Assembly: GCA_947167835.1 (NCBI GenBank) | Contig: CAMVJO010000002.1 | Coordinates: 1-51,738 of the forward strand | DNA from: an uncultured Prevotellaceae bacterium | Lineage (GTDB): Bacteria; Bacteroidota; Bacteroidia; Bacteroidales; Bacteroidaceae | Length of the DNA stretch: 51,738 nt | Direction: 5' to 3' | Shown: piece after piece, positions 2,868-49,850 of the stretch | Layout of the letters: every line of letters begins with the position of its first letter | Numbering within the stretch: the stretch's first letter is position 1 | Program-made: the position numbers and the translations under genes | The notes under the pieces: generated by a model | What the model saw: the letters and a program-made list of their open reading frames with translations, nothing else | Databases searched by the model: none | What the model was told of the DNA's origin: nothing

Positions 2868-3050
2868 TCTGTATATGTGTGGTTTATTTCTTTATACTTG
2901 AGATTTCTTACTTTATATGCGAAATAGCTTATTCTATACGTGAGAATCTTTTTTGTAAGTGAAGGGTTCTTCACTTTATGTGTGAGGCTTTTTTCTGTAT
3001 ATGCGAGTTTCTCCCTTGTATATCCAAGCCCCTTTCCTATATATATTATA
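2868..3050. repeat. degenerate ~21-bp tandem array upstream of the prenyl synthase
   Basis: About eight units of the pattern TTCTGTATATGYGNG + T-rich tail, for example CTTTATACTTGAGATTTCTTA, CTTTATATGCGAAATAGCTTA and CTGTATATGCGAGTTTCTCCC, at 20-22 bp spacing. Sequence is unrelated to the CGGAG-type arrays but the period is the same. It ends directly at MITE copy C. Confidence 0.7.
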
Positions 3051-3320
3051 GGGTAGTTCTAAAAATTAGGTTTTAAAATTTTGTGAAGCTTTTTTGGTCT
3101 GTATGCTTTTTCAATCTTTTTGGCGCCATTGTCTTTAATACCTTGAACCATAGCTCGCTATGCTTCTGCGGCATTAAAAACAAAATCACTCAAAAATCTT
3201 TGAATTCTTCGCGCACACTCTGTTTGTTGTCTGCCCCGTAGGGTGAAGCTCTGCGGGTTGCAGGAACAAACGTATAGAGAGTGTAAGCAAATCAAAACAG
3301 CCTAATTTTTAGAACAACCC
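3051..3320. repeat. MITE-like element, copy C, with an 85-bp insert
   Basis: Same ends and body as copy B, with TATA target duplications (3047-3050 and 3321-3324). Relative to copies B and D it carries about 85 extra bases (about 3204-3288) after ATCTTTGA. The extra segment is itself an imperfect hairpin (CACTCT and GTTTGTT pair with AACAAAC and AGAGTG). Total 270 bp. The rest of this 535-bp gap, 3321-3394, holds nothing I can identify. Confidence 0.85.
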
Positions 3321-3394
3321 TATATAATAAGGAGTATCTTTCCGTTATTTTTCTGTTTTCGCGGCAGAATCAGGCTATCCTTCGCCGCAAAAAT

Positions 3395-4198: not shown

Positions 4199-4222
4199 GT
4201 TATATAATAAATAGGCTTTCTT

Positions 4223-4440
4223 TGTGTCGCAATAATTTTTGCTAATTCCGCAGTAGCTTAGACTAACTCCGAAGAAGCTTACGCTAATTCCACGGTAGCT
4301 TATACCAGCGTCGCAATAGATTTCCTTAGCTCGGCATCGTCATGCGTGAATGTCGCACAACGCAAAAACGATGCGTCACTTGGTGAAAATAGTGTGGGAC
4401 ACCGTAAAAACAGTGTCGAAACACGTAATTTTTGCGCCGT
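4223..4440. repeat. 21-bp-phased array between tonB and porQ
   Basis: Units such as GCTAATTCCGCAGTAGCTTAG, ACTAACTCCGAAGAAGCTTAC and GCTAATTCCACGGTAGCTTAT are exactly 21 bp. The TCCG/TCGC core recurs at about 4227, 4247, 4268, 4289, 4310, 4331 and 4353, then less regularly as GTCAC, GTGGG, GTCG and GCGCCG to about 4436. It fills most of the 329-bp intergenic gap. No coding potential. Confidence 0.75.
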
Positions 4441-4498
4441 AAAAGCGTTAAAAAGTTTTTTCACGCACAAAAGTAGTGCGAAAATATAAAATTCTATG

Positions 4499-4506
4499 TA
4501 CCTTTG
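4499..4506 (+). promoter_or_regulatory. -7 box for porQ-cmk-ispH (TACCTTTG)
   Basis: TACCTTTG matches the Bacteroidota TAnnTTTG -7 consensus 21 bases before the ATG of porQ, giving a very short leader. No clear -33 element is seen. It overlaps the TTG proposed as start in the ORF track, which argues for the internal ATG. Confidence 0.6.
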
Positions 4507-7242: not shown

Positions 7243-7600
7243 TCGTTATAACGGTATAACGTTATGACGTTATTACGAAGGCTTTGCGAAGAATATTATT
7301 GGGAAAATGGGCATTATGGGCAATATGGGGTTAATGGGCGCCGAGATAAAGAAACTTATCTCCGAGCAAAAAAAATTAGCTCGACACTATTTGAAATTAT
7401 CTCGGAGATAAAAAAGAATTAGCTCCGAGCTATTTGCTCCTATTTCGTGGATATTTTTTTGTATTCCGAAAAACCCCGAAAATATCGAATAATAAAGGGC
7501 TCACGACTGTGGATATAATTCGAGTTCCAGAAACTAATCGAGAGATAAATAGAATTATCTCCGAGATAATTAAAATTTCCTTGGACTTATTTTTCAGAGC
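7243..7600 (+). repeat. 21-bp-phased intergenic array, related-repeat copy 2 (most complete)
   Basis: Module order: GTTATAACGGTATAACG-type block (7243-7278), GGG-tract block (7301-7338), CGGAG cores at about 7340, 7361, 7381, 7402, 7424, 7445 and 7465 (21-bp phase), the ATATCGAATAATAAAGGG segment, and more cores at 7538, 7560 and 7581. The palindrome TTATCTCCGAGATAA occurs near 7555. Together with the terminator and promoter this accounts for the 632-bp gap before the methyltransferase gene; 7601-7741 holds nothing else I can name. Confidence 0.75.
7301..7338 (+). other. putative G-quadruplex motif
   Basis: GGG-AAAAT-GGG-CATTAT-GGG-CAATAT-GGGG-TTAAT-GGG fits the G3N1-7 pattern with five tracts. 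Equivalent blocks lie at 32909-32948, 49639-49668 and, on the minus strand, 24809-24848. Folding is inferred only. Confidence 0.45.
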
Positions 7601-7741
7601 GTTTTTCGAGGTTCGGTAACAGAGGAAAGTGGATAACGGATATTGATTTCTACCATTACGTTTTTTGCAGGAAAACCTATGCCCCGAAATTTTATGTTGC
7701 AAAAAAAGATGTTACACAGAGTGTAAACACCGATTTTTTAC

Positions 7742-21111: not shown

Positions 21112-21143
21112 AACAATATTTTTGACATAGTTACTTTTTATGC

Positions 21144-21300
21144 CGATTTTTTGATTTTTATGGCCTTGAAATCTAAATCTATAGTCGTGCAATGCGATTA
21201 AATTTCTTTGAAATCTAATTCAATGGCCGTGCAATCCAATTAAAGAGTTGAGGTGTCCAATTAAATGTACGTGCAATCTAATTAAACAGCCGTGTTATCC
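21144..21300. repeat. 21-bp-phased array between tRNA-Ser and the nucleotidase gene
   Basis: The core CGTGCAATCYAATTAAA or its variants start at 21165 (CTTGAAATCT), 21186, 21207, 21228, 21249, 21270 and 21291, exactly 21 bp apart. Sequence is unlike the CGGAG arrays. It occupies most of the gap, after the tRNA promoter. Confidence 0.75.
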
Positions 21301-21342
21301 TCTTTTATATTCGCAGAAAGCTATCGGATATGTGCAGAATAA

Positions 21343-24466: not shown

Positions 24467-24540
24467 CAAAATAAAACGCAGGTTAGTCCTATTCTTTCCG
24501 TTTTATTGAGTTATCTATGGTTTTTCGTGTCCGCAGTATG

Positions 24541-24925
24541 ATTTTTGCTTCGGAAAATAAGTCCGAGCAAAATTCAAGTATCTCGGAGCAAATTCTAATT
24601 ATCTCCCAATTAGTTTGTGATACTCGAATTTTATCCATATCCGTGCACCCTTTATTATTCGATATTTTCGGGGTTTTTCGGGATAAAAAAAATTGCACAC
24701 GGAATAGGAACAAATAGCTCCGAGCATAATTTTTTTATCTCGGAGTTAATTCTTAATAGTGTCGAGCTAATTTTATTTTGCTCGGAGCTAAATTTTTGTA
24801 GTTCCGAGCCCATTAACCCCAAATTGCCCAAATTGCCCATTTTCCCCCAAGGAAAAATATTACCAGCGGCCATAGTTTTTTCTTCTCCTTCGGTATATCG
24901 TGATAACGGTATAACGGTATTATGA
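24541..24925 (-). repeat. 21-bp-phased intergenic array, related-repeat copy 4
   Basis: CGGAG-type cores at about 24562, 24583, 24604 and 24624, then 24719, 24740, 24762, 24782 and 24803, at 20-22 bp. The order of shared segments is the reverse of copy 2: cores, CCCTTTATTATTCGATATTT, more cores, GGG-tract block on the minus strand (24809-24848), and the GATAACGGTATAACGG block near 24900. It lies between divergently transcribed thyA and the acyltransferase gene and fills the 624-bp gap. Confidence 0.75.
24809..24848 (-). other. putative G-quadruplex motif (minus strand)
   Basis: On the minus strand GGGGG-AAAAT-GGG-CAATTT-GGG-CAATTT-GGGG-TTAAT-GGG fits G3N1-7 with five tracts, in the same place in the repeat as at 7301-7338. 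Folding is inferred only. Confidence 0.45.
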
Positions 24926-25832: not shown

Positions 25833-28685
25833 ATGCACTATCTACTTTCCCTTCCCCCTAATGTAGTCAGTCATTTCCACGCCATTACAGGACTTAGTCC
25901 CGAACAATGGTTCTGTACTCACGACCCCATAGGCCATAAGTTGGGCTCCGGAGGTGGTACCACGTGGCTGCTCGAAGCCTGCTGCCGTGCCGAAAAAGCC
26001 GATGCCGACTTCAACGAATGGATAGGCCGCGAAAAACGCGTTCTCCTCCATGCCGGAGGACAGAGCCGCAGACTGCCGTGCTATGCTCCGCAGGGAAAAG
26101 TACTTACCCCCATTCCGGTTTTCCGTTGGGAAAGCGGACAGCGCATTAACCAGACACTACTCGATTTGCAGACGCCGCTTTACGATGCTATCTTGGATCG
26201 TGCGCCCAAAAGTCTGAACACACTCATCGCCTCGGGCGATGTATATATCCGTGCTACGGAGCCATTGCAGAACATCCCCGATGCCGATGTGGTTTGCTAC
26301 GGCTTATGGGCAGAACCCGTGCAGGCATCGCATCATGGCGTGTTTATGATGAATCGCAATACGCCGGAAAAACTCGATTTCATGCTCCAAAAGCCCAGTA
26401 TAGAACAACAGGCCAAACTGATGCCCACACATTTCTCGCTTATGGACATAGGTATCTGGCTTTTGAGCGACAGAGCCGTAGAAATCCTGCGCAAGAAATC
26501 ATACGATAGCAACGGAAATCTTTGCGAATACGACCTTTATAGTGAGTTTGGTTGCGCATTGGGACAGCATCCGTCCGTTCCCGATTCCGACCTCGCCGAT
26601 CTTTCTGTTTGTGTCCTGCCTCTTCCGGGCGGAGAGTTCTATCATTTCGGAACAGCCCCCGAATTATTATCTTCGGCCATGGCTATTCAGAATTTAGTCA
26701 AGGACCAGCGCCATATTATCCAACTTCATGTGAAAAGTCACCCATCGCTTTTCACACAGAACGCCGTCATCCGTAGCAAGTTCAACGAGAAAAACCAATA
26801 TGTCTGGGTGGAAAATTCCTATGTGCCTGATACTTGGACATTGACCAGACAGAATATCGTAACTGGCGTACCTGAGAATAATTGGCACCTTACTCTTCCC
26901 GAAAATGTCTGCATAGACGTCGTGCCTATCGGCGAAAAACAATGGGCGCTCCGACCTTATGGATATAATGACGCCTTCCGCGGACCGGCAAGCGACGAAA
27001 AGACACAATACCTCGAACGCCCCTTGAAAAAATGGTTGGAGCAACATCTGATTACTGACAGCCAAATTGAAGGAGCGCAGACCGATTTGCAGAGAGCGCA
27101 GATATTCCCCGTAGTAGATACCACCGATGAACTGTTACATTGGTTCGAGTGGATGACAGGTACGACATCTACTCCCGAAGAGACGGAGAAATACCTGAAA
27201 CTGCCGAGACTTGCAGCCGAAGACCTGTCCAATCAAGCCAATCTGCCGAGAGTGGCAGCACAACGTACGAGGTATTGCGCGGAAAACATACAGAAAATAG
27301 CAAAGAACTGGCATAAAAGTGTGTTCTATCAGACTAATCTGAAGAATATGGCGGAGCAATTCCATCATGCTGCCATCGAATTGCCACAACCCCTGACAGA
27401 CGAAGCACCATTGATGACTAAAATTCACGATGCTATGTTCCGTTCGGAATTTCATCGGCTCGGTGGCAACGAAGATCAGGCAGAAAAGTTCCAAGCCGAG
27501 GCTTTTTCATTGCTACGTCAGGGATTGACACAGGAAGCCCTGGAACACAAGAGTAATCCTCGCCTCTCCGTTTATTCAGATCAGATAGTTTGGGGTAGAA
27601 GTCCCATTAGAATTGATGTTGCCGGCGGGTGGACAGACACGCCTCCGTACTCATTGAAAACGGGTGGCAACGTAGTGAATTTTGCCATAGAGTTAAATGG
27701 TCAGCCTCCCTTGCAAGTTTATGTGAAGCCCTGCAAAGAATTTGTTATCGTCTGCAGAAGCATTGATTTGGGCGCCATAGAAAGAATTGAGACCTACGAA
27801 GAATTAAAACAGTACAACAAAGTCGGTTCACCCTTCTCCATTCCTAAAGCTGCCCTGTCACTTGCTGGGTTTTTGCCCGGCTTCGGCGCAGAAAACTTCA
27901 GGACTTTGCGTGAACAACTCGAAGCCTTTGGTTGCGGTATTGAGATTACTTTGCTTTCTGCCATACCTGCTGGTTCGGGACTTGGCACAAGTTCTATTTT
28001 GGCCGCAACTGTTTTGGGAGCAGTCAGCGACTTCTGTTCGTTAGACTGGGATTCCAATGAAATATGTCACCGCACTTTGGTTTTAGAGCAGTTATTGACA
28101 ACAGGAGGTGGCTGGCAAGATCAATATGGTGGCGTATTACCAGGTGTTAAGTTGCTGCAAACGGGACAAGGCTTCCGGCAAGATCCGCTTACCCGCTGGC
28201 TACCCGATACTATCTTCACGAATGACGACACTAAAGGCCTGCATCTTTTGTATTACACGGGAGTAACGCGCACCGCCAAGCACATTTTGGCCGAGATAGT
28301 CCGAGGTATGTTCCTGAATAACACCACTCATTTGCAGTTGCTCGGCGAAATGAAACAACATGCCCTGCAAATGTTTGAAGCGCTCCAACGTAACGATCTC
28401 AACCTCTACGGAAAATTATTGCGGCGCACATGGCTGCAAAATCAGCGTTTAGATAGCGGTACGAATCCTCCCGTTATTCAGAAACTCTGCGGCGAAATCG
28501 ATGATTGGTGCGCAGGTTATAAACTTCCGGGCGCAGGTGGCGGCGGTTATCTCTACATGGTTGCTAAAGATGCCGAGGCTGCGAAGAAAATTCGCCAGCA
28601 TCTCAACGAAAACTCCCTCTCTAAAAATGCACGCTTCGTAGAAATGAGCGTTTCCAACCAGGGTTTACAAGTAAGTCGCAGCTAA
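25833..28685 (+). CDS. fkp: bifunctional fucokinase / L-fucose-1-phosphate guanylyltransferase (FKP)
   Basis: Turns free L-fucose into fucose-1-phosphate and then GDP-L-fucose, the donor for fucosylated capsule and glycoproteins in Bacteroides. 950 residues, almost the same as the Bacteroides fragilis enzyme. The N-terminal pyrophosphorylase half has GHKLGSGGGTTWLL and HAGGQSRRLPCYAPQGK near residues 35-90. The C-terminal GHMP kinase begins near 585 with WGRSPIRIDVAGGWTDTPPYS, has the PAGSGLGTSS loop and ends with LPGAGGGGYLY. Both active-site regions look intact. fucP at 42896 would supply the substrate. Confidence 0.94.
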   Translation: MHYLLSLPPNVVSHFHAITGLSPEQWFCTHDPIGHKLGSGGGTTWLLEACCRAEKADADFNEWIGREKRVLLHAGGQSRRLPCYAPQGKVLTPIPVFRWESGQRINQTLLDLQTPLYDAILDRAPKSLNTLIASGDVYIRATEPLQNIPDADVVCYGLWAEPVQASHHGVFMMNRNTPEKLDFMLQKPSIEQQAKLMPTHFSLMDIGIWLLSDRAVEILRKKSYDSNGNLCEYDLYSEFGCALGQHPSVPDSDLADLSVCVLPLPGGEFYHFGTAPELLSSAMAIQNLVKDQRHIIQLHVKSHPSLFTQNAVIRSKFNEKNQYVWVENSYVPDTWTLTRQNIVTGVPENNWHLTLPENVCIDVVPIGEKQWALRPYGYNDAFRGPASDEKTQYLERPLKKWLEQHLITDSQIEGAQTDLQRAQIFPVVDTTDELLHWFEWMTGTTSTPEETEKYLKLPRLAAEDLSNQANLPRVAAQRTRYCAENIQKIAKNWHKSVFYQTNLKNMAEQFHHAAIELPQPLTDEAPLMTKIHDAMFRSEFHRLGGNEDQAEKFQAEAFSLLRQGLTQEALEHKSNPRLSVYSDQIVWGRSPIRIDVAGGWTDTPPYSLKTGGNVVNFAIELNGQPPLQVYVKPCKEFVIVCRSIDLGAIERIETYEELKQYNKVGSPFSIPKAALSLAGFLPGFGAENFRTLREQLEAFGCGIEITLLSAIPAGSGLGTSSILAATVLGAVSDFCSLDWDSNEICHRTLVLEQLLTTGGGWQDQYGGVLPGVKLLQTGQGFRQDPLTRWLPDTIFTNDDTKGLHLLYYTGVTRTAKHILAEIVRGMFLNNTTHLQLLGEMKQHALQMFEALQRNDLNLYGKLLRRTWLQNQRLDSGTNPPVIQKLCGEIDDWCAGYKLPGAGGGGYLYMVAKDAEAAKKIRQHLNENSLSKNARFVEMSVSNQGLQVSRS

Positions 28686-28733: not shown

Positions 28734-28920
28734 GGGTTGTTCTAAAAATTAGGCTGTTTTGATTTTTCAAAGATTTTTGAGTGATTTTGTTTTTAATGCC
28801 GCAGAAGCATAGCAAGCTATGGTTCAAGGAATTAAAGACAATGGCGCCAAAAAGATTGAAAAAGCATACAGACCAAAAAAAGCTTCACAAAATTTTAAAA
28901 CCTAATTTTTAGAACTACCC
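28734..28920. repeat. MITE-like element, copy D
   Basis: 187 bp, opposite in orientation to copy B, from GGGTTGTTCTAAAAATTAGG to CCTAATTTTTAGAACTACCC, flanked by TTTA on both sides (28730-28733 and 28921-28924). It begins 48 bases after the fkp stop codon. With copy B it differs at only a few positions, so transposition looks recent. Confidence 0.88.
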
Positions 28921-28929
28921 TTTAAGAAA

Positions 28930-29167
28930 TTCCAGCAATTAGAAAATAATAGTCTGGCTTTCTTTGAGAATATTCGGAATTGAGAAACAATAATTCTGGT
29001 TTTCTATAAATAGATACGGGACTTTGGAAAAATTGCTCGGCTTATCTTTGAAAAGATGTGGAACTATTTTTTGAAATGGTGGCACTTCTTGTATTTAGTT
29101 CAGCAAATAGAAAAGAAGAACCTGGTTTTCGGGAATAATAGTCCGAGGTGTAAAAATAGAAATCCGT
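28930..29167. repeat. 21-bp-phased array upstream of the 5'-nucleotidase gene
   Basis: GC-containing cores (TTCCAG, GTCTGG, TTCGGA, TTCTGG, TACGGG, CTCGG, TGTGG, GGTGG, TTCAGC, CCTGG, GTCCGAG, ATCCG) at about 28930, 28952, 28973, 28994, 29015, 29036, 29056, 29078, 29098, 29120, 29141 and 29162. Twelve units, each 20-22 bp. With MITE D it accounts for the 506-bp gap. Confidence 0.75.
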
Positions 29168-29191: not shown

Positions 29192-30766
29192 ATGATGAAG
29201 AAAAGTTTGATATTACTGCTGATGCTGCTGAGCTTTTTTGGTGCAGCGGCACAAAACGTGACAGTAGCTGTGTTTAGTCTGAATGATTTCCACGGCGCTT
29301 TTTTGCGCGACGACCGCAAAAATATAAAAGGTGCGGCTGCGGTGGCGCAAACGTTGAGAAACTTGCAGGAACTGTACCCTTATAATGTGACAGTGTCGGC
29401 TGGAGATAATTTCGGAGGCAGTTATTTCTATAATGTGACGAAGGGCCGGACTTTACCTCTGTTTTTTCAGACAGCAGGTATTGAACTTTCTGCCGTTGGC
29501 AACCATGAATTTGACGATGGCTTGGTGAAACTGGCCGATAAGTGGAGCAAATGGCGTCCTGAAGGCTGGAATCTGAAATATGTCTGCGCAAACGTGACAG
29601 AAAAGGCAACGGGAAAAATTCCTTCTTACTTCCAACCTACGGCTACTGTCAGCATACCGCTGTCGGAGACGAAGCAAATAAAAGTTGGCTTCGTGGGACT
29701 GGCAACTTCCAACACCCCATTTCAGGTTTCATCGGGCAAAGTCGATGCGCTCTCGTTCAACGGAGATTATACCTCGGTCGTCAATCAGTATAAGTCGGAG
29801 ATAGCCGATGCCGACATCCGACTTTTGCTCATGCACATCGGGACAAATATGAAAGACGGCGCACCAATCTGGGCAGACCGCGACTCTGCAAATATTTCCT
29901 CGTTCAACGATCGCGATTTCCACGGCCTACTGACAGGACACTCCCATGAAGCTGTCGTTGGCACGATAAATTCTAATGATTACCCCGTAGTTCAAGGACA
30001 TTGGCACGGCAATTATATCAATATCATCCGATTTACGGTCGATACTGTCGCCATGCGTGTGTTGAAAGCCGAACCTGAAATTATTTCCGTGAACGAAAAC
30101 ATTCGTTTGGACGACACTTGCAAACGTTTCGAGGCCGTCTGCGATTCATTAGTCCGCCATACGAAAGTGGGAGGCTACAATATGGATCAGGTAATCGGCA
30201 CTATCGAAGAAGAAATCATACATGATAGAAGCGATAAGTACAAAAAGACGAAAATTGGCGAGGCTGTTTGCCGTGCTTACGCCGAAACCGTTCGCGAAAA
30301 GGGTGGTTTCGGAAAGAATGAACCCATTATCGGATTAAGTCACTTCGGTAGTATTCGCAGTGGCTTCCCTAAAGGAACTTTGCGCGTTATTGATGCGGGC
30401 GAAACCTTGCCTTTCGAGAATACGCTCTGTCCTTTCTATATTTCCGGCCGCGTCCTGAAAGAATTAGTCAGTTATGGTTTTCACAATATGAAATATGGCT
30501 GGCTACAGACCGGATGGCTAAAAATAGAAACCGATGCAAATCAGAATGTCAAGCGACTTATCATCCAGACTCCCGGAGGTAAAAACATCAAAGTCAAGGA
30601 TAACGGGAAATACATCTTCGTTGTAGATAGTTATATGGCCGGTGGCGGCGATGGCTACGACAAGAAATATTTTGATCCCGAGAATAAACTGAAGATTGAC
30701 GGACTTCCCGTAACCACTGGCGCCTTTATCGATTACCTCATCCGCAATAAGGCAAAAATAGACTGA
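29192..30766 (+). CDS. secreted 5'-nucleotidase / metallophosphatase, shorter paralogue
   Basis: 524 residues with signal peptide (MMKKSLILLLMLLSFFGAAAQ). Metallophosphatase motifs in order: FSLNDFHGAF, SAGDNFGGSYF, AVGNHEFDDG, LLMHIGTN and LTGHSHEAVVG, then a 5'-nucleotidase C-terminal domain with SYMAGGGDGYD near the end. Same fold as the gene at 21343 but clearly diverged. The start could be either of two adjacent Met codons. It lies alone between a 21-bp array and the agmatine genes. The substrate is unknown; nucleotides, NAD or sugar phosphates are possible. Confidence 0.87.
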   Translation: MMKKSLILLLMLLSFFGAAAQNVTVAVFSLNDFHGAFLRDDRKNIKGAAAVAQTLRNLQELYPYNVTVSAGDNFGGSYFYNVTKGRTLPLFFQTAGIELSAVGNHEFDDGLVKLADKWSKWRPEGWNLKYVCANVTEKATGKIPSYFQPTATVSIPLSETKQIKVGFVGLATSNTPFQVSSGKVDALSFNGDYTSVVNQYKSEIADADIRLLLMHIGTNMKDGAPIWADRDSANISSFNDRDFHGLLTGHSHEAVVGTINSNDYPVVQGHWHGNYINIIRFTVDTVAMRVLKAEPEIISVNENIRLDDTCKRFEAVCDSLVRHTKVGGYNMDQVIGTIEEEIIHDRSDKYKKTKIGEAVCRAYAETVREKGGFGKNEPIIGLSHFGSIRSGFPKGTLRVIDAGETLPFENTLCPFYISGRVLKELVSYGFHNMKYGWLQTGWLKIETDANQNVKRLIIQTPGGKNIKVKDNGKYIFVVDSYMAGGGDGYDKKYFDPENKLKIDGLPVTTGAFIDYLIRNKAKID

Positions 30767-32879: not shown

Positions 32880-32908
32880 ATTTTGCAGGGACTCTCAATG
32901 CGCTTTTT

Positions 32909-33000
32909 GGGGGGAAATGGGGAAAATGGGCAATTTGGGCAATATGGGCTCGGAGATACAAAAATTTATCTCCGAGCTATTTTTTTTCTTGTCTCGGGAG
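32909..33000 (+). repeat. partial related-repeat copy 5 with G-quadruplex-like block
   Basis: GGGGGG-AAAT-GGGG-AAAAT-GGG-CAATTT-GGG-CAATAT-GGG at 32909-32948 is followed by only three CGGAG cores (about 32950, 32971 and 32993, spacing 21-22 bp). The AATAAAGGG half is absent, so this copy is truncated. It sits just after the aguB stop. Confidence 0.65.
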
Positions 33001-34958: not shown

Positions 34959-35001
34959 GGTATTTCGGAGTAGATAATAAAAATGTGAGCAAGAAAGTTA
35001 A

Positions 35002-35187
35002 GGGTTGTTCTAATAATTAGGCTGTTTTGATTATTCAAAGATTTTTGAGTGATTTTGTTTTTAATTTTGCAGAAGCATAGCAAGCTATGGTTCAAGGAAT
35101 TAAAGACGAAAGCGCCAAAAAGATTGAAAAATCATACAGACCATAAAAGAACTTCCCAATATTTTAAACTAATTCTTAGAACAACCC
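35002..35187. repeat. MITE-like element, copy E (second subtype)
   Basis: 186 bp from GGGTTGTTCTAATAATTAGG to CTAATTCTTAGAACAACCC with TTAA duplications on both sides (34998-35001 and 35188-35191). One end differs from copies A-D (AGAACTTCCCAATATTTTAAACTAATTC) but matches copy F exactly. The right duplication contains the TAA stop codon of the glutathione peroxidase gene. Confidence 0.86.
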
Positions 35188-35796
35188 TTAAAGTAATCCC
35201 TCAACGGCTTCGCGCACTCGCTGCATATCTTCGGTAGGTTCGAAGCGTTGCACGGGATGTCCGTCTCGGTCGATAAGGAACTTGGTGAAATTCCATTTGA
35301 TGTCGGGATTCTTGTCGAAATCCGGGTTCTGTGCCCTGAACATCTGGTCTAAACGTTGTCCAAATGGGTTATTGAGATCGAAACCGCGGAAGGGCAGTTT
35401 GCTTTTCAGATAGGAAAAGAGCGGAGTGGCGTCCGGTCCGTTCACACATACCTTGTCAAATTGCGGAAAGGTGACTTGAAAATGCTCCGTGCAGAAGCTC
35501 TGAATGGTATGTATGTCACCAGGAGCCTGAGTGCCGAACTGATTGCACGGAAAGTCGAGAATGACGAATCCGCGTGCCTTGAACTTGTTGTAGAGTGCTT
35601 CCAACTCTTTGTATTGTGGCGTGAAACCGCAATGAGTGGCGGTATTTACCACAAGAATAACTTGTCCTTTGTAAGTATCCATGCACACTTCCTGGGCAGC
35701 GGCGTTGCGTGCCGTGAAACCGTAGATGTCACTCTGCGCTGCTGCCTTGAAAGAAATGAAAGTGAGCAGGAAAAATAAAATAGTCAGCCTCTTCAT
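35188..35796 (-). CDS. glutathione peroxidase family protein, exported
   Basis: 202-residue thiol peroxidase of the GPx family, expected to reduce hydroperoxides, probably with thioredoxin. Signal peptide MKRLTILFFLLTFISFKAAA suggests the periplasm. The catalytic motif is NTATHCGFTPQY with C56 in place of selenocysteine, then FPCNQFGTQAPG with the catalytic Gln, and IKWNFTKFLI with the catalytic Trp. The stop codon lies in the target duplication of MITE copy E. It is 10 bases from the thioredoxin-like gene upstream, which could supply electrons. Confidence 0.92.
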   Translation of the reverse strand: MKRLTILFFLLTFISFKAAAQSDIYGFTARNAAAQEVCMDTYKGQVILVVNTATHCGFTPQYKELEALYNKFKARGFVILDFPCNQFGTQAPGDIHTIQSFCTEHFQVTFPQFDKVCVNGPDATPLFSYLKSKLPFRGFDLNNPFGQRLDQMFRAQNPDFDKNPDIKWNFTKFLIDRDGHPVQRFEPTEDMQRVREAVEGLL

Positions 35797-38284: not shown

Positions 38285-38327
38285 AACAGCGGGGAAATCA
38301 GATTTAAATTCGACTTCCTGTAGAATA

Positions 38328-38560
38328 GTTCCGAGGTGCTCCCGGAGATGTCCGACATCTTTTCAGAGAAGTCCGTTATCTTTTTAGAGAAGTCCTACAT
38401 CTTTTGGGGATAGTCCGACAACTTCTTAGAAAAGTGAGGCATTCCTCTGAATAAGTCCGAGATAATTCAAAATAAGTCCGAGATAAAATAAAATAGTTCG
38501 GAGATAAAATAAAATAGTTCTGAGGTAATTTATAATAGCCCTGAGGTACGGAAAGATATA
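38328..38560. repeat. strict 21-bp array after the CD225 gene
   Basis: Units beginning GTCC/GTTC start at 38328, 38350, 38371, 38392, 38413, 38434, 38455, 38476, 38496, 38517 and 38538: eleven units, all but two exactly 21 bp. Consensus is GTCCGAGAT + AT-rich 12. Early units read GTCCGACATCTTTTCAGAGAA and later units GTCCGAGATAATTCAAAATAA. All three forward frames are closed by stops. It fills the 310-bp gap. Confidence 0.8.
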
Positions 38561-38594
38561 TCCGACTATTTTCACATTACTTTGCCATTAACGT

Positions 38595-42400: not shown

Positions 42401-42482
42401 AATTTCGGAACAGCAATAAAAGGTTGATCTTGCCTTTTGTTTATTATCTGCCGGTTACAAGAATAGATTGACAAGCTAAATA

Positions 42483-42570
42483 TTTTCTCATCGCCATGAT
42501 AAAGTTTTCTCATCGCGTAGAGAAAATTTTCTCTTCGCGATGAGAATCTTTTCTCTACGCGAAGAGAATG
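42483..42570. repeat. four 22-bp palindromic iterons
   Basis: Four back-to-back 22-bp units, TTTTCTCATCGCCATGATAAAG, ..ATCGCGTAGAGAAAA, ..TTCGCGATGAGAATC and ..TACGCGAAGAGAATG, at 42483, 42505, 42527 and 42549. Each has a dyad centre at CGCG, and units 2 and 3 are near-perfect reverse complements (18 bp, one mismatch). They lie 326-413 bases upstream of fucP. The remaining gap 42571-42895 holds no gene; TATCTTCG at 42800 is a weak -7 candidate. Confidence 0.75.
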
Positions 42571-42895
42571 CATATTGGCTGGATTGATTCAGGTAATGTG
42601 GGCGTTGTTTGGAAAACTCCTTGTTGTGTTATTTGTAGTGCTTACTTAACGCTGAAAAGTGTCGTTTCTTTTAGAAAAGGTAGGGTGAATTTCTGAAATA
42701 GTAGGGTAGGAGTGGCAGATTTTGTAGGTTTTATCTCCGATATCTCCAATAATGAATTAAAAAAAGCGGGATAAGGCAGGAAAAGCCGTTTTTTATTTGT
42801 ATCTTCGCGAGGCAATATGAGCTCTTTTGTCGAGCCGTTATTGCAAAGAATAGAATTTATAGATTTTTTATCGGAATCCAGAAACAAAATACTTG

Positions 42896-49558: not shown

Positions 49559-49581
49559 TTTTATATCGTTGGCGGTGTGTT

Positions 49582-49850
49582 TCGTTATGACGGGATGACG
49601 GTATAACGGAATAACGAGTTCTTTGCTAACATTTTCATGGGGTAAATGGGCGATTTGGGCAATATGGGTTAATTGGCTCGGAGCTATTTGCCCTTATTTC
49701 TGGGGTAAATATTTTGACTCCCAAACTATGAGAAACTACTGATGAACAAAGGCCGCATAGATGTGGGTAAATATAAGGTATCGAGAACTAATTGGGAGAT
49801 AAATGAAATTATCTCCGAGATAACTGAATTTTGCTCGGATTTATTTTTTT
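49582..49850 (+). repeat. 21-bp-phased intergenic array, related-repeat copy 6
   Basis: Same module order as copy 2: GACGGTATAACGGAATAACG block (49590s), GGG-tract block GGGG-TAAAT-GGG-CGATTT-GGG-CAATAT-GGG at 49639-49668, cores at about 49678, 49699 and 49719, and later cores at 49781, 49814 and 49835 with TTATCTCCGAGATAA. It occupies the 420-bp gap between topB and the glycosyltransferase gene. Confidence 0.72.

Follow-up and report, generated by a model that had tools for sequence, protein, structure and literature searches.

A two-turn base-composition lattice with dyad-symmetric units runs through genes and spacers of an uncultured Prevotellaceae bacterium

The stretch of DNA analysed here (the window; 51,738 bp, positions 1 to 51,738 of contig CAMVJO010000002.1) carries on its forward strand a fucokinase/GDP-fucose pyrophosphorylase gene (fkp, 25833-28685) and, downstream of it, a 5'-nucleotidase/metallophosphatase gene (29192-30766), both assigned by Pfam. 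Between the two genes lie a MITE-like palindromic element of the forward strand with GGGTTGTTCTAAAAATTAG ends and a 4-bp target duplication (28734-28920) and, adjoining it, a row of twelve 21-bp units (28930-29167). The G+C content of this row has a power of 14.5 at a period of 21.0 bp, which is the top peak within 5-40 bp, whereas 5000 dinucleotide-preserving shuffles averaged 1.1 and did not exceed 9.2. The preliminary description had proposed a regular spacing of short G/C cores and a comparison with shuffled sequence of the same composition as the control; since none of the 5000 shuffles reached the observed power, this spacing is indeed regular far beyond chance. Moreover, the phase of the two flanking genes alone (28085-28685 and 29192-29791) predicts cores at 28933, 28954, 28975, 28996, 29017, 29038, 29059, 29080, 29101, 29122, 29143 and 29164, and the previously noted cores CTGG, CGGA, CTGG, CGGG, CTCGG, TGTGG and CCGAG are found at predicted positions.

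It had also been supposed that such a row escapes repeat finders based on identity, and this was confirmed: Tandem Repeats Finder (TRF) reported nothing at 28930-29167, and a repeat search grouped three of the twelve units at 73% identity, the units otherwise sharing almost no sequence. Accordingly, the units are not related by sequence identity as those of a tandem repeat are. What could not be upheld is the idea of a discrete twelve-unit element. The borders of the array are those of the non-coding spacer, and the same pattern continues into both adjacent genes, through the whole window and through most of the sampled chromosome, including coding DNA. The twelve units are this lattice as seen in non-coding DNA and no separate element.

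Within the window (1-51738), the continuous 21.04-bp lattice is apparent from the spectrum (10.52 bp at 11.8 times and 21.03 bp at 7.8 times background), from its coherence (0.61 at 210 bp and 0.38 at 3.4 kb) and from its phase, which can be traced through 51 kb with a slow drift and no lasting jump. Both genes flanking the array are coding stretches of the lattice; fkp shows a third-position power of 35 at 21.08 bp and 33 at 10.54 bp, and about 0.195 of the GC3 variance of the downstream gene is attributable to the lattice. Many other spacers are equally phased when printed in 21 columns, often with a palindromic core such as CTCGGAG or CTCCGAG. These include the spacers at 4199-4503 (with a 21-bp TRF row at 4242-4302) and 21139-21342 (TRF row at 21181-21294), the spacer at 24525-24818 with clear CTCGGAG/CTCCGAG cores each 21 bp, and the spacer at 38306-38578 with TCCGAGATAA-type cores at the same distance. 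The assembly of the window itself has 29 places with a close pair of cores of the CTCGGAG/CTCCGAG type, and three other genomes among 58 of the genus have two to three each; viral contigs that carry a pair of G000 cores showed no lattice. An Rfam search returned two tRNAs and nothing else.

The assembly is a metagenome-assembled genome (MAG) of 2.25 Mb in 157 contigs (89.6% complete), of which 450 kb were analysed, with genes called by a custom script based on open reading frames and codon usage. The best-fit period over these 450 kb is 21.04 bp, that is 2 x 10.52 bp or two helical turns. The autocorrelation of G+C peaks at 21, 42, 63 bp and so forth in spacers and coding sequence alike; in coding sequence it starts at 0.073 for lag 21 and has dropped only to 0.048 by lag 630, where the shift of the peaks indicates a period slightly above 21 bp. 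Spectra of 1024-bp windows show the 10.52-bp component at 7.2 times and the 21.03-bp component at 4.5 times background, with harmonics at 4.20, 3.50, 2.62 and 2.33. A power of at least 8 was found in 69% of 900-bp windows (null about 0.3%), and the phase differed by more than 5 bp between neighbouring strong windows in 1.5% of cases. The phase correlation of the 21.04-bp wave is 0.50 at 210 bp, has fallen to 0.41 by 1 kb and to 0.23 by 4 kb, and stands at 0.09 at 7.8 kb. By the same measures, E. coli K-12 yielded 1.58 times background at 11.03 bp and a coherence below 0.1 at 210 bp. The lattice is continuous between genes and spacers, as flanking genes, separated by spacers with a median of about 250 bp, have phases that match to within about 3 bp in 125 of 147 pairs, and same-strand and opposite-strand neighbours are both phase-locked (R = 0.64, null 0.09).

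About 30% of the windows are without signal, including some core genes on one contig (C6, or L013), namely those for an AcrB-type protein, an LpxA-type protein and a penicillin-binding protein, where the lack of a lattice was unexpected. Other lattice-free regions are a patch of BspA-type LRR genes and their neighbours (L021:6000-16500) and a MvaI/BcnI-type restriction endonuclease gene (L018:18823-19998).

In coding sequence the signal resides in the third codon positions, where its power is 7.6 and 5.0 against 0.8-1.0 in controls; it is weak at the first and nearly nil at the second position, the composition of both of which shifts slightly with lattice phase. When the phase is predicted only from DNA 50-600 bp away, the G+C content of fourfold sites runs through 0.81, 0.27, 0.52 and 0.30 around the unit, and that of spacers falls from 0.54 to 0.25. 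When synonymous codons were shuffled inside each gene with the protein sequences preserved, the coding peak at 21 bp fell from 5.5 to 1.3 and the one at 10.5 bp from 9.05 to 2.1. From this we conclude that the pattern exists at the level of DNA and is written by means of codon choice. Locking to start codons was ruled out, and so were coiled-coil heptads, the latter by the codon shuffle together with the non-integer period.

The lattice unit is dyad-symmetric. A 21-state cyclic hidden Markov model (HMM), trained on one half of the spacers and scored on the other, outperforms a first-order Markov model on the held-out spacers and describes the unit as the palindrome TCTCSGAGA with A/T flanks, the bicoherence angle is near zero, and the A/T and C/G profiles are mirrored. 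The 21.03-bp peak is independent and phase-locked to the 10.52-bp component, and the odd harmonic 5 of 21 (4.20 bp) is present. The A/T flanks are phased, as the A-tracts of curved DNA would be, but the pattern also appears to need the specific palindromic core and the two-turn repeat.

Fkp groups the window genome with Alloprevotella (64% identity to Fkp of A. rava DSM 22548, whose Fkp is identical to that of genus member G006). Two sister species, G017 and G023, have a period of 21.12-21.19 bp (about 21.13) and a waveform unlike that of the window genome, with G+C maxima at 0 and ±6 bp, a pronounced harmonic at 7.04 bp and the palindrome TCTGCAAGSCTTGCAGA; they place G/C where the window genome has A/T and keep the period. 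The second of them, taken to be the public MAG RGIG7311 (L052), originated independently of the window's assembly and has a related lattice. Kilobase coherence is weaker in G056, G041, G024 and G044, of which G041, the closest sampled relative, has a weak lattice only. G028 shows 10.53 bp only, and one-turn periods are the sole or main ones in G028, G056 and G263. A. rava and most other sampled members of the genus showed no kilobase coherence above noise, and most other sampled genera of the family as well as about 17 sampled genomes of the order showed no peak above noise at 21.05/h, with the exception of G263; relatives were mostly sampled by 6-100 kb, and about 20 genus members lay outside the 20-kb sampling. 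G263, from another genus of the family (L163, L193), has its peak at 10.64-10.67 bp; its 10.64-bp periodicity is coherent over kilobases (z = 7) and possibly a one-turn analogue outside the genus. A period of 10.89 bp was found in L162. Since the strong-lattice cases occupy three separate branches of the fkp tree, the lattice has been gained or lost repeatedly, with a changing base preference.

The two sister species allowed us to follow the register through evolution. Their orthologous genes, with about 91% protein identity and about 29% divergence at third positions, share the lattice phase (R = 0.82). Most changes at the diverged third positions are between S and W, in a comparison without outgroup that fits maintenance and decay of the lattice alike. 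Individual aligned indels in 39 orthologous spacers are of all sizes (R = 0.02 modulo 21.13), a list that leans on alignments of 70-90% identity, where spurious gaps are possible, whereas net lengths are unaffected. The net length difference is 0 in 15 of these spacers, 1-2 bp in 12 and larger in the remaining 12; nine of the larger differences fall within 2.1 bp of a multiple of 21.13 bp (expected 2.4; binomial 5.9e-5). In the control pair, Sinorhizobium meliloti and S. medicae pSymB, which belongs to another phylum and has a comparable protein identity and equally many spacers, none of the 22 larger differences lies on such a multiple (R = 0.06; Fisher p = 4.2e-6 versus the sister species). 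The comparison comprises one species pair and one control pair. Across three large indels between the sister species (12.4, 4.2 and 1.9 kb) the register is kept within about 5 bp, which is weak evidence. The tolerated changes of 1-2 bp can account for the slow drift of the phase in the window.

The MITE-like element next to the array provides a further record. Including its duplication, the copy at 28734-28920 measures 191 bp, i.e. nine lattice units plus 1.6 bp, and the register is intact on both sides. Further copies lie in the window at 1705-1892, 3046-3322 and 34998-35192, and dozens are dispersed over the 450 kb. With the 4-bp duplication they form two length classes about 84 bp (four lattice units) apart, of about 190-191 bp or 274-275 bp, which correspond to 9 or 13 units of 21.04 bp plus about 1 bp. 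The register is maintained within 3 bp across 20 of the 21 insertions with measurable flanks, and the mean shift of +1.19 bp matches the prediction from element length. Because copies are up to 100% identical, the register is kept by the length of the element and not by re-adaptation. By our own estimate the chance that both lengths fit so well is about 1%, which supports the spacer result and would be insufficient alone. Taken together, the conserved register, the quantised spacer lengths and the register-keeping insertions make selection on helical register likely.

This conserved step suggests an agent of fixed two-turn repeat by which the entire chromosome is coated or read. We regard it as evenly poised whether most of the chromosome is written to fit a once-per-two-turns contact by a dyad-symmetric, probably homodimeric protein that would form a cooperative nucleoid filament or array. 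Such a protein would contact DNA each 21.04 bp (2 x 10.52 bp), its units would align side by side, and each unit would prefer G/C at the dyad (TCTCSGAGA in the window genome) and, at a distance of about 5 bp, A/T. Within genes, adaptation would be confined largely to synonymous positions, hiding the pattern in third codon positions, and in spacers it would surface as arrays of low identity, with 28930-29167 among them. Length changes off a multiple of about 21 bp would dislocate the array and then be removed or compensated, with shifts of 1-2 bp being tolerated; contacts between neighbours would make dislocations costly, so that off-register indels would be lost. These purely local rules could produce both the slow phase drift and the kilobase coherence without a long-range ruler. 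The protein as the reader, the continuity of its array and selection on that continuity are what we infer. A common two-turn period with differing palindromes and waveforms in the sister species would follow from a fixed geometry combined with an evolving base preference. Neither of two protein families compared yielded a candidate for the reader. The number of HU paralogues in the genus genomes does not track lattice strength, and the histone fold PF00808 was absent from 58 genus genomes including the window's, with positives in three control archaea. One genus member (G056, 2.6 Mb) with a weak coherent 10.6-bp signal has 26 HU-family matches compared with the usual 3-10 in the genus.

Helix-phased composition linked to packaging or expression is known from nematode germline PATCs (periodic An/Tn clusters) and from nucleosome-positioning periodicity, which differ by their period of about 10 bp and their local, eukaryotic, non-coding clusters from a two-turn palindromic lattice in bacterial coding third positions. 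Iteron and partition-site arrays (19-22 bp repeats of plasmid replicons, ParR/TubR sites) also place protein sites about two turns apart and nucleate protein arrays; they are, however, short, local, near-identical direct repeats, whereas the lattice spans most of the sampled chromosome with almost no identity between units. The nucleoid protein H-NS is described as assembling into long structures, guided by how its binding sequences are arranged, and as preferring an AT-rich motif (PMC5418058). The putative reader would resemble it as a nucleoid protein building long assemblies, but a chromosome-wide base-level lattice is absent from the abstract of that paper.

The closest relation is to the helical periodicity of 10-11 bp in prokaryotic genomes (PMC3431218; cyanobacteria, PMC4132750; Atzinger and Lawrence, PMC7537859), which shares the genome-wide, helix-phased composition written partly through third-position codon choice. 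Atzinger and Lawrence make a case for selection and for a binding partner, propose compensatory indels without testing them, and report that the E. coli periodicity reaches at least 1 kb (PMC7537859). The window genome has the genome-wide peak of about one turn (10.52 bp, 7.2 times background over 450 kb), mostly encoded by codon choice. It differs in that the fundamental is two turns, with an independent 21.03-bp peak and a dyad-symmetric unit, in that the signal is 4-7 times background in 1-kb windows compared with 1.6 times in E. coli, in that the phase relation is still 0.41 at 1 kb and 0.23 at 4 kb rather than weak and decaying, and in that net differences in spacer length and the sizes of one MITE-like family match multiples of the lattice period. 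We therefore file the lattice as a variant of genomic helical periodicity and keep separate the categorically new reading, in which a near-continuous, chromatin-like lattice of dimeric sites, one per two turns, would run through genes and spacers, with its register selected, so that net changes of spacers and even the sizes of mobile elements would be held to whole steps of about 21 bp. This organisation, undescribed in bacteria, may well exist, but we rate it a little short of probable. A literature search of open PMC text, with subscription papers outside its scope, found no 21-bp lattice or conserved register described. The window genome makes it directly testable whether the helical periodicity of bacterial genomes serves a function and has a partner that binds: the signal is several times that of E. 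coli, is coherent over kilobases, predicts each contact position, leaves a measurable record in indels and varies among relatives. If the proposal is true, a physical lattice would govern codon choice, spacer evolution and transposon success in such bacteria, a level of chromosome organisation undescribed before.

Instead of a static coat, a processive machine (a translocase, or one serving segregation, DNA uptake or recombination) might follow a single helix face, two turns per step, and favour DNA whose bases repeat in time with it. To our knowledge, known directional trackers use asymmetric guides, whereas the unit here is dyad-symmetric, and the register is kept equally across spacers and opposite-strand genes. 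For these reasons we consider such a machine unlikely, even though the species-specific waveform on a common period would suit it, spread driven by uptake could account for rapid gain and loss between species, and it fits the suggestion of a processive partner reading genomic periodicity (PMC7537859).

Alternatively, a phased array may exist and leave a merely mutational imprint, bound and exposed positions mutating differently and the bases being without function. Mutation supplies a force acting at nearly each third position more readily than selection does, and recently acquired or repeat-rich genes, such as the LRR/BspA and MvaI/BcnI genes, are without lattice. The quantised spacer lengths, however, need selection on register beyond a base bias, the first and second codon positions shift slightly as well, and the amplitude is greater at fourfold sites (0.81-0.27) than in spacers (0.54-0.25), to which blurring by indels could contribute. 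We judge this unlikely, too. The intrinsic shape of DNA, with phased A/T and G/C tracts that curve or stiffen it in the absence of a sequence-specific partner, agrees with the strong 10.52-bp component and with the three relatives having only or mainly one-turn periods. We find it likewise unlikely in view of the two-turn fundamental and the specific palindrome at the core, and since the sister species have G/C in place of A/T at constant period; shape alone should not vary between species.

Ordinary causes, i.e. tandem 21-bp duplication, heptad (seven-codon) coiled-coil coding or an assembly artefact, hardly deserve credence, because despite the equivalence of 21 bp and seven codons, the TRF-detectable 21-bp repeats of some spacers and the dispersed repeat families, they are excluded as the sole explanation by the loss of the synonymous signal on codon shuffling, the period of 21.04 and not 21.00 bp, the single phase across unrelated genes on both strands and the related lattice of the independent MAG.

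A dispersed family with palindromic TTCTCATCGCGATGAGAA units is found at 42479-42576, at L019:15638-15734 and at many other places, with a typical match of 82-85 bp, or about four lattice units. Composite spacer repeats, likewise dispersed, at 7243-7618, 24542-24861, 32900-33000 and 49580-49850 combine CGTTATAACGG-type repeats of 8-9 bp, CCCAAATTG-type repeats of 9 bp and CTCCGAG cores.
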